DNA of 11,485 nucleotides, from the NCBI GenBank assembly GCA_015523575.1, contig WAJZ01000115.1, positions 1-11,485 of the forward strand, given 5' to 3'. The stretch is from Candidatus Hestiella acidicharens. GTDB taxonomy: Archaea; Thermoproteota; Thermoprotei_A; Sulfolobales; Acidilobaceae. Below, piece after piece: positions 854 to 11,485 of the stretch. The stretch's first letter is position 1, and each line of letters opens with the position of its first letter. The notes under the pieces were generated by a model. That model worked only from the letters and a program-made list of their open reading frames with translations, was not told the origin of the DNA and did no database searches. A program made the translations under genes and the position numbers.

Positions 854-859
854 TTATAT
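854..859 (+). promoter_or_regulatory. Candidate TATA box before the structured element and GPN gene
   Basis: TTATAT lies centred about 27 nt upstream of base 884, the usual distance between an archaeal TATA box and its transcription start. It would start a transcript almost exactly at the first paired base of the structured element. A second A/T-rich stretch (TAAAAATATA, 874-883) is an alternative that would start transcription near 905 to 910, inside the element. Confidence 0.4.
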
Positions 860-883: not shown

Positions 884-948
884 GGAGGCCAAACTGCCTG
901 CGTGAAGGTGCCCCGTGTTCCGGGGTCATGTGTGCGCAGGAGGCCTCC
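884..948 (+). ncRNA. Candidate GC-rich structured RNA or leader element, class unknown
   Basis: Three nested perfect stems are visible. GGAGGCC (884-890) pairs with GGCCTCC (942-948); CCTGCG (897-902) pairs with CGCAGG (935-940); CCCCG (911-915) pairs with CGGGG (921-925) around a 5-nt loop. Internal loops are AAACTG opposite a single A, and TGAAGGTG opposite TCATGTGTG. About 68 percent of bases 884-949 are G or C, clearly richer than the flanks; GC-rich islands of this kind mark structured RNAs in AT-rich hyperthermophiles. A TATA-like box sits 27 nt upstream. It is not a tRNA (no T-loop GTTC, too short), and I saw no C/D boxes, 3' ACA box or riboswitch consensus that I know. It could be an independent small RNA or the 5' leader of the GPN gene, whose ribosome site starts 9 nt beyond the outer stem. 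AGGAGG occurs at 883-888 and 938-943, both within the stems. Confidence 0.45.
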
Positions 949-956
949 CAGAAAAA

Positions 957-961
957 GGTGA
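957..961 (+). promoter_or_regulatory. Shine-Dalgarno site setting the GPN gene start
   Basis: GGTGA, part of the archaeal consensus GGAGGTGA, lies 5 nt before the ATG at 967. The in-frame upstream ATG at 928 has no such site and lies inside the structured element, so 967 is preferred. Confidence 0.65.
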
Positions 962-966
962 AGAGA

Positions 967-1746
967 ATGTTTATAGTATTAATAGGTACTGCAGGTTCTG
1001 GAAAAAGTACCCTAGCCTCATATTTAAAGGCAACAATCGAGGCCTCAGGAAACGTGGTGGCAAGCCTAAACTTCGATCCTGCAGCCGAGTCCCTACCTTA
1101 TGAGGCAGACATAGACATTAGAGACTATATCAAGGTTGAAGATTTCATGGCCAGAGGTTATGGACCAAATGGTTCAGTGATAGCAGCCGTTGACTCAATA
1201 ATAAACTATGCAAATAAAGTAAGGGAAGAAATCTACTCATATAGACCCGATTTCGTTATCATAGACACGCCCGGGCAACTTGAGCTATTTGCCTACAGAA
1301 TAGGTGGCCCGATAGTCCTAGAGTCAATAGTAGAAGATGAGAAGGCCGTCGTAGTTTTCCTCATGGATTCAATATTTTTTGACAACCCGGCCGACATGGT
1401 TTCCATACTTACCCTTGCGAGCTCCGTCAATACTAGGCTCAAAAGACCCCAGATAAATGTGATAAGCAAGTCCGATCTAATAATTAGGGAAGTACTTGAA
1501 AATGTTATACCAATGATACATGAGGAAGGTTACCTAGAATCCATGCTCAGAGAGAGTAACGATATAGACCCACAGGTTCTAGGCTTATCAATAAGCCTTG
1601 CTAAGGCCCTCTATGAATCAGGGTATTTCGGCGAGATAATTCCAGTTAGCATCTATGATGAAGTTACCATTAAGAACCTTTACGGTAAAATACAGGAAGT
1701 ACTGAGCCAAGGAGAAGACAAGAAAATCTATGACACCTATGCATAA
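967..1746 (+). CDS. GPN-loop GTPase (archaeal GPN family)
   Basis: This is a 259-residue GTPase of the GPN-loop family, represented in archaea by PAB0955 of Pyrococcus abyssi and in eukaryotes by Gpn1-3, which act in RNA polymerase II assembly; the archaeal role is not settled. Numbered from the ATG at 967, Walker A is GTAGSGKST (7-15), the diagnostic Gly-Pro-Asn insertion is 66-68 within RGYGPNGS, the G3 motif DTPGQ is 100-104, and the guanine-specificity motif is SKSD (167-170), the S-K-x-D form being a variant of N/T-K-x-D. PVSI near 226 fits the G5 position. The frame can be extended to an ATG at 928, adding MCAQEASQKKVKR, but 967 has the ribosome site and places Walker A 6 residues from the N terminus, as is normal. 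Cytoplasmic dimer expected. The GC-rich candidate RNA leader lies directly upstream. No clear terminator follows. Confidence 0.93.
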   Translation: MFIVLIGTAGSGKSTLASYLKATIEASGNVVASLNFDPAAESLPYEADIDIRDYIKVEDFMARGYGPNGSVIAAVDSIINYANKVREEIYSYRPDFVIIDTPGQLELFAYRIGGPIVLESIVEDEKAVVVFLMDSIFFDNPADMVSILTLASSVNTRLKRPQINVISKSDLIIREVLENVIPMIHEEGYLESMLRESNDIDPQVLGLSISLAKALYESGYFGEIIPVSIYDEVTIKNLYGKIQEVLSQGEDKKIYDTYA

Positions 1747-11459: not shown

Positions 11460-11485
11460 CTGTCTCTTATACACATCTGACGCTG
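11460..11485 (+). other. Nextera transposase adapter left at the contig end (artefact)
   Basis: The 19-nt Tn5 mosaic end CTGTCTCTTATACACATCT is present in full at 11460-11478, followed by GACGCTG, the beginning of the Illumina Nextera read adapter. It is not genomic sequence. It interrupts the epimerase gene, and on the minus strand it creates a spurious protein beginning MYKRQ. Base 11460 could belong to either genome or adapter. Confidence 0.97.

Follow-up and report, generated by a model that had tools for sequence, protein, structure and literature searches.

A GC-rich hairpin upstream of a GPN-loop GTPase gene in Candidatus Hestiella acidicharens is a diverged member of an order-wide small-RNA family

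A stretch of 11,485 nt of Candidatus Hestiella acidicharens DNA, which we call the window, carries a compact GC-rich hairpin just ahead of a GPN-loop GTPase gene. This locus raises the question of what kind of RNA the hairpin belongs to, and whether it acts as a small RNA or as the leader of the GPN messenger. An earlier note on the sequence had described three perfect nested helices in a G+C-rich 65 nt, and a sequence check found them exactly as claimed. GGAGGCC (884-890) pairs with GGCCTCC (942-948) in the lower helix, CCTGCG (897-902) with CGCAGG (935-940) in the upper helix, which is extended by U903.G934, and CCCCG (911-915) with CGGGG (921-925) in the apical helix. The G+C content of 884-948 is 67.7%, against 28% and 39% in the adjoining 100 nt, and a scan of 65-nt windows gave values as high in 3 of 11,421. 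Folding of 878-968 yielded -39.2 kcal/mol (z -4.08), equalled by none of 200 shuffles; with longer flanks (835-1000) the z-score was -2.31, equalled by 4 of 200. When the window was scanned for tRNAs and Rfam families the 884-948 hairpin matched neither, and a search of 830-1010 against Rfam with E up to 10 returned three chance-level matches only, in keeping with the note's view of a structured RNA that fits no tRNA, C/D, H/ACA or riboswitch consensus. The features of the locus are:

854-859, forward strand: TATA-like box TTATAT of the RNA and GPN transcript (from sequence)
884-890, forward strand: lower stem, 5' strand GGAGGCC (fold; within-genus compensatory changes, by eye on the alignment)
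891-896, forward strand: unpaired AAACTG, at the position of the relatives' 5' rRNA arm, without such a match here (alignments; -6.9 kcal/mol against its own helix 68 (H68) site in 23S rRNA)
897-903, forward strand: upper stem, 5' strand CCTGCGT (fold; covariation across ten families)
904-905, forward strand: putative kink-turn, non-bulged strand GA (alignments read by general kink-turn rules)
911-925, forward strand: apical hairpin CCCCG-TGTTC-CGGGG (fold; helix 2 of alignment A4, 98.7% of cells paired)
929-933, forward strand: putative kink-turn, bulged strand TGTGT (L1-L3, 1b, 2b; motif U-G in 47 of 47 A4 rows, by eye)
934-940, forward strand: upper stem, 3' strand GCGCAGG (fold; covariation)
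942-948, forward strand: lower stem, 3' strand GGCCTCC, at the position of the relatives' 3' rRNA arm, lost here (fold; -12.8 kcal/mol against its own helix 69 (H69) site)
957-961, forward strand: GGTGA, the probable ribosome-binding site for GPN, lying outside the stems (from sequence)
967-1746, forward strand: GPN-loop GTPase gene (PF03029, E 3.4e-52; homologues in 56 of 60 relatives)

A small-RNA family with a conserved hairpin core

The window hairpin belongs, in diverged form, to a family of small RNAs that extends through the window's order. A covariance model built from 19 sequences (R1) matched 135 of the 214 genomes of the order at a threshold of E<=0.1, and in the class a second model (R2), built from 47 sequences of ten families, matched 179 of 229 genomes (E<=0.05), mostly with one or two copies each; both counts include the genomes from which the models were built. 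Across the phylum R2 matched 73 of 398 genomes, 66 of these within the order, and it recognises the window copy with an E-value of 2.5e-10. Computation establishes both the family and its structure. The covariation that the earlier note had proposed seeking in relatives is present in the 47-row alignment A4, in which 20 of the 23 pairs change on both sides; double-change cells number 90, against a mean of 30.9 in shuffled alignments (0 of 500 shuffles as high), and the covariation score is 0.278, with at most 0.099 when the partners are slid. Copies share a conserved layout: above the upper stem comes an internal loop, which has (G/A)A in its 5' strand and, in its 3' strand, a bulge that closes with U-G-N, and a CCCCG-type apical hairpin caps the whole.

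The internal loop reads as an L7Ae-type kink-turn, an assignment that we made by inspecting the alignments with general kink-turn rules. By the same inspection, the putative motif appears near-standard in the copies of family f9 and of two sister types described below (B and C), while second pairs are non-standard in family f1 and in the window, where the second pair is G.U. A model built from 12 B-type RNAs alone also detects the RNAs that we term type A, including two in the window's genus (G001, G004), which supports A and B being one family. Rfam 15 gave no family above the gathering threshold for the window, for eight copy-bearing loci (of 11 scanned) or for the 18 loci of another scan; only tRNAs matched. 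Among named genomes, 77 stretches contain the 18-base core of the 3' arm exactly, of which 43 are archaeal and 34 bacterial; besides one Thermoplasmata record there are 42 archaeal occurrences, and the scattered bacterial ones we take to be chance.

Variants of the hairpin were observed at several loci. At L027 (about 1320-1430) an extra GC hairpin beside the kink-turn would make a branched RNA. Second copies in Acidilobus-like genomes (L097, L115) resemble the window type: they lack an rRNA arm, and their lower stem, GGGAC/GUCCC, is perfect. Hairpins of similar layout at L159 and L169 have outer arms (GCCCCGC...GGGGCGGGGC) that pair with each other, and it is possible that these are further family members or that they are unrelated. 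Weak R2 matches with the same hairpin layout lie at L164-L166, in an apparently Pyrobaculum-like family (f25), and these may be known H/ACA-like RNAs.

Genomic setting and the GPN gene

Within the window's family the hairpin lies upstream of GPN at 25 of 30 loci (24 by pattern and L027 by eye), with about 13 to about 205 nt between the matched core and the aligned GPN start. The RNA is not beside GPN in four genomes of that family (G007, G019 and G026 of genus g4, and G008), nor does it adjoin GPN in any of the 21 other-family genomes for which both coordinates were listed; ORFs printed around 20 loci outside the window's family included no GPN by eye. From family to family the RNA is therefore not tied to one downstream gene in the manner of a riboswitch or cis-leader. 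Confinement of the GPN neighbourhood to the window's family points to a free-standing small-RNA gene, one that is not a GPN regulator by origin. Computation also places TATA-like boxes at the right distance: 34 of 48 RNA copies have such a word beginning between -40 and -14, against 8 of 48 in an equal-length control stretch. The position of the RNA away from GPN, together with these boxes, indicates that most lineages transcribe it as a unit of its own. The window's genus differs in that the RNA is also a leader, because 18 nt separate the hairpin from ATG 967. There it must begin the GPN transcript as well, and it is either cut out of that transcript or is now a kink-turn leader.

We consider it rather improbable that the RNA of the window's genus is by now a cis-acting GPN leader, for example one that L7Ae binds as it does the leader of the l7ae mRNA, and that a separate RNA no longer exists. 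The nearby start codon speaks for such a leader, as do the lack of room for a second promoter before GPN, the loss of the rRNA arms while the stems of the window's genus keep compensating, and the kink-turns known from l7ae leaders (excerpt of PMC5539422). However, family-wide the RNA lies away from GPN, its spacing to GPN varies widely even within the window's family, and the ribosome site is outside the stems, with the kink-turn not placed over it. To another alternative, which explains the stems as a side effect of a conserved coding frame starting at ATG 928, we give almost no credence. That frame is open in the window and in L003, but it is shifted in L004 and meets a stop codon in both L005 and L006, so a coding extension from ATG 928 was rejected; GPN homology begins at ATG 967, and elsewhere the RNA is found far from GPN.

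These results bear on most of what the earlier note had proposed. It had left open whether the element is a small RNA or a long leader: the small-RNA option fits the family as a whole, given that GPN is not its neighbour in other families than the window's, and in the window's genus the leader option holds as well. The TATA-like box that it placed at the right distance is there (TTATAT, 854-859). Missing compensatory changes or a conserved reading frame, which it had named as grounds for abandoning an RNA, were not what we found, since such changes are present and the frame is lost. Its suggestion that the stems sequester or mimic ribosome sites, drawn from AGGAGG at 883 and 938, found no support: the stems do not include GGTGA, and the aligned relatives have not retained AGGAGG. 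The overall interpretation survives as regards structure, covariation and promoter, and lacks support as regards the ribosome site.

The neighbourhoods of the RNA hold further recurrent elements. C/D-box-like GATGA...CTGA sequences with conserved guide-like stretches occur at L023 (about 1249-1316), at L026 (on the opposite strand) and at L078 downstream of the RNA, and such sequences near the RNA are seen in both Acidilobaceae and Sulfolobaceae-like loci. Beside the RNA in several families (L065, L076-L081) stands a small gene whose product begins much like PTIHLSLPE and by eye resembles a ribbon-helix-helix protein, and intron-bearing tRNA-Ser(GGA) or tRNA-Pro(GGG) genes lie upstream of it in Acidilobaceae (L010, L011, L019, L021, L023, L024, L027). 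At the contig end, window positions 11460-11485 read CTGTCTCTTATACACATCTGACGCTG, presumably a Nextera sequencing-library adapter left in the assembly, to judge by its resemblance; it gives an epimerase ORF false ends.

Complementarity of the arms to ribosomal RNA

A first rRNA scan covered seven genomes, with no result from G203, and in type A RNAs of several genomes both arms proved complementary to 23S rRNA. The 5' arm is complementary to ACCGGGGU(N)CA. About 22 nt downstream of that site lies GGCCGGGAGU, to which the 3' arm (ACUCCCGGCC) is complementary. We take the first site to be the apical hairpin of H68 and the second to be the 5' strand of H69. The rRNA site could be read by pattern in 81 of 214 genomes, and 51 of these were paired with their own RNA. 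In 39 of the 51 the complement of the 3' arm lies in H69 of the same genome, with pairing at -18.5 to -26.8 kcal/mol, and one arm base tracks a variable rRNA position, with U facing A in 26 of 26 cases and C facing G in 13 of 13. G109 (C/G) sits inside family f9, the other 12 members of which are A/U. Computation shows that the arms co-vary with the rRNA: among the 39 arm-bearing genomes, own pairing beat 2000 of 2000 swaps for each arm, relatedness being ignored in this comparison. Swaps within families were as good in 2 of 5000 for the 5' arm and in 388 of 5000 for the 3' arm; the latter is nearly constant within families, so that the base switch rests on few independent events. Shuffled arms did as well in 568 of 7800 (5') and 57 of 7800 (3'). 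The 5' arm is the weaker of the two, reaching -15 kcal/mol or better in 33 of the 51 genomes, and it is poor despite a 3' arm in G008, G027, G034, G046, G161 and G163.

Extended to GGGUCACUCCCGGCC, the 3' arm has 14 of its 15 positions paired with GGCCGGGAGUAAC(U/C)C in 5 of 7 genomes; G003 and G201 reach 10 and 9 in their best registers. The extended duplex ends at a U followed by a G in 5 of the 7, and this U is presumably U1917 by E. coli numbering. According to an excerpt of PMC2584109, Psi1915 and Psi1917 of H69 are universally conserved positions. When the tail's complement was sought in ten genomes as a 13-mer allowing at most two mismatches, most of them gave counts like those of a reversed control, among the matches listed. 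As a separate observation, the 23S sequences of L122 and L123 depart from those of other genomes after CTCTTAA just 3' of H69, as if an intron were inserted.

The arm is absent in 12 of the 51 genomes: G184, G185, G196, G200, G201, G205 and G207 (f11), G022, G030, and G000, G001 and G003. The armless f11 genomes are Sulfolobaceae-like and the last three belong to the window's genus; two armless genomes that we examined keep the rRNA U-G. In the window's genus a perfect lower stem takes the place of the rRNA arms, and inspection of five aligned sequences by eye shows compensatory changes in it (C-G/U-G/U-A, G-C/A-U and A-U/G-C). The window copy scores -12.8 kcal/mol against its own H69 site, without the arm motif, and -6.9 kcal/mol against the H68 site. 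When a replacement arm against H69 was sought in 11 genomes, exact matches were found inside 23S genes only.

Sister RNAs have arms that match 16S rRNA instead. In 6 of 13 B-type copies the arm, AGGCUCCACCCCU, is complementary without a mismatch to 13 nt of 16S (AGGGGUGGAGCCU); five further copies match 10-12 nt at the same site, bringing the total to 11 of 13; in two of the 13 the longest exact match lies elsewhere. In 11 of the 13 cases the rRNA compared came from a relative's genome. Shuffles were as good in 0-2 of 500 for the 13-nt cases and in 5-82 of 500 for the shorter ones. A downstream match of type B to 23S was set aside because some copies lack it. C-type arms match 16S CGCCCGACGG-UG; here 65-212 of 500 shuffles were as good, and we rejected this match as a real pairing.

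A putative guide RNA and its known relatives

The reading that we favour, and hold to be just on the probable side, is that these small kink-turn RNAs form H/ACA-like guide RNPs whose 3' arm docks on H69 in most genomes examined, and that the window's genus has lost the arms. L7Ae would hold the kink-turn, the long 3' arm would dock the RNP on the rRNA beside the target U, and Cbf5 would pseudouridylate that U; the 5' arm would pair with the apical H68 hairpin just upstream of the H69 site, and the sister RNAs would direct their arms at 16S rRNA. We infer L7Ae binding, RNP assembly and rRNA modification. A kink-turn hairpin with free arms complementary to rRNA beside a U is found in the relatives and not in the window copy. 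An ANA box was sought 14-16 nt after the upper stem and is not at a fixed place, type A having CC(A/U), CA(U/C) or similar, type B AGG and two C copies ACC. A two-sided H/ACA target search with type A gave only weak recurrent 16S sites (U15, about U540), none convincing, and no pairing on the 3' side of U1917. Two-sided pairing around U-N amounts to 11+4 in one B copy and to 10+4 and 9+4 in two C copies, and is absent or weak in two other B copies. The lack of an ACA box, the lack of a convincing two-sided guide in type A and a 5' arm whose match lies upstream all count against the guide reading.

The main rival is an rRNA clamp. Such a clamp, in which both arms bind 23S at once (H68 apical strand and H69 5' strand) and hold these helices of the subunit interface open in assembly or block subunit joining, without pseudouridylation, would account for the missing ACA box, for each arm tracking its own rRNA site across species, and for the 5'-arm site preceding the 3'-arm site by about 22 nt, an order that an H/ACA pocket cannot use. 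We nevertheless regard it as unlikely: the extended 3' duplex stops exactly at U-G, type B follows the same rule on 16S, and the 5' arm is poor in the six arm-bearing genomes named above. We put no higher a likelihood on the fuller version, in which an RNA clamping H68 and H69 with two co-evolving arms around a kink-turn is a chaperone of assembly or subunit joining and not a modification guide, and in which the copy of the window's genus has lost its rRNA arms and been captured as a fixed GPN leader. Very unlikely, in our judgement, is the identity of type A with the described Sso1 RNA, the H/ACA guide for Psi35 of tRNA-Tyr that the excerpt of PMC4652768 reports from four Sulfolobales species and A. 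pernix. This species list overlaps the type A hosts, and both RNAs have a kink-turn hairpin. However, under the H/ACA rule the start of the 3' arm, GGGUC, is unable to pair with G34, the neighbour of U35, as judged from general tRNA features only, and a tRNA-Tyr gene pattern search produced no tRNA-Tyr-like match among the matches listed.

If the favoured guide-RNP reading is right, an order-wide archaeal small-RNA family is aimed at H69, the heart of the ribosome subunit interface, and would show how a universal pseudouridine (or H69 folding) is handled in these archaea. H/ACA-like RNAs would then extend beyond Pyrobaculum, with another pairing geometry, and the window's genus would offer a natural case of an RNA losing its target and joining an mRNA.

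Literature searches found no paper on this RNA family. A Sulfolobus copy may be among the S. acidocaldarius sRNAs counted in PMC5539422, the excerpt of which gives 2 H/ACA and 21 unknown sRNAs. Like archaeal C/D box sRNAs, the RNA has a (putative) kink-turn and is antisense to rRNA, and C/D-like sequences lie near several copies; unlike them, its kink-turn loop is embedded in a stem within a hairpin core and the type has no terminal C and D boxes. Assignment to that class was rejected since boxes C (RUGAUGA) and D (CUGA) are absent at the ends of the aligned copies (A1, A4). The l7ae mRNA leader of the PMC5539422 excerpt starts its mRNA with a kink-turn, as, on our reading, in the window's genus, whereas here the gene is GPN, the hairpin belongs to a free-standing RNA family and L7Ae binding is predicted. 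Canonical archaeal H/ACA sRNAs (Pyrococcus type) share the hairpin and, on our reading of its internal loop, a kink-turn about 8-10 layers above the guide region, and the H69 pseudouridines are typical archaeal sites; type A differs in having no ACA box, no convincing two-sided pocket with guides of 5-6 nt and no 9-bp lower stem.

The kind of RNA is known, best from Pyrobaculum to go by the excerpt of PMC4652768, and the family itself is absent from Rfam 15. The H/ACA-like RNAs of Pyrobaculum (Bernick et al. 2012, via PMC4652768) are the nearest known kind: they too consist of a single hairpin with an embedded kink-turn and free 5' and 3' guide-like arms, and their ANA box is often degenerate or missing. 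In contrast, the present family belongs to another clade and has other sequences, its 3' arm pairs over 10-15 nt, and the 5' arm of type A matches a site upstream of the target rather than the 3' side of the U.
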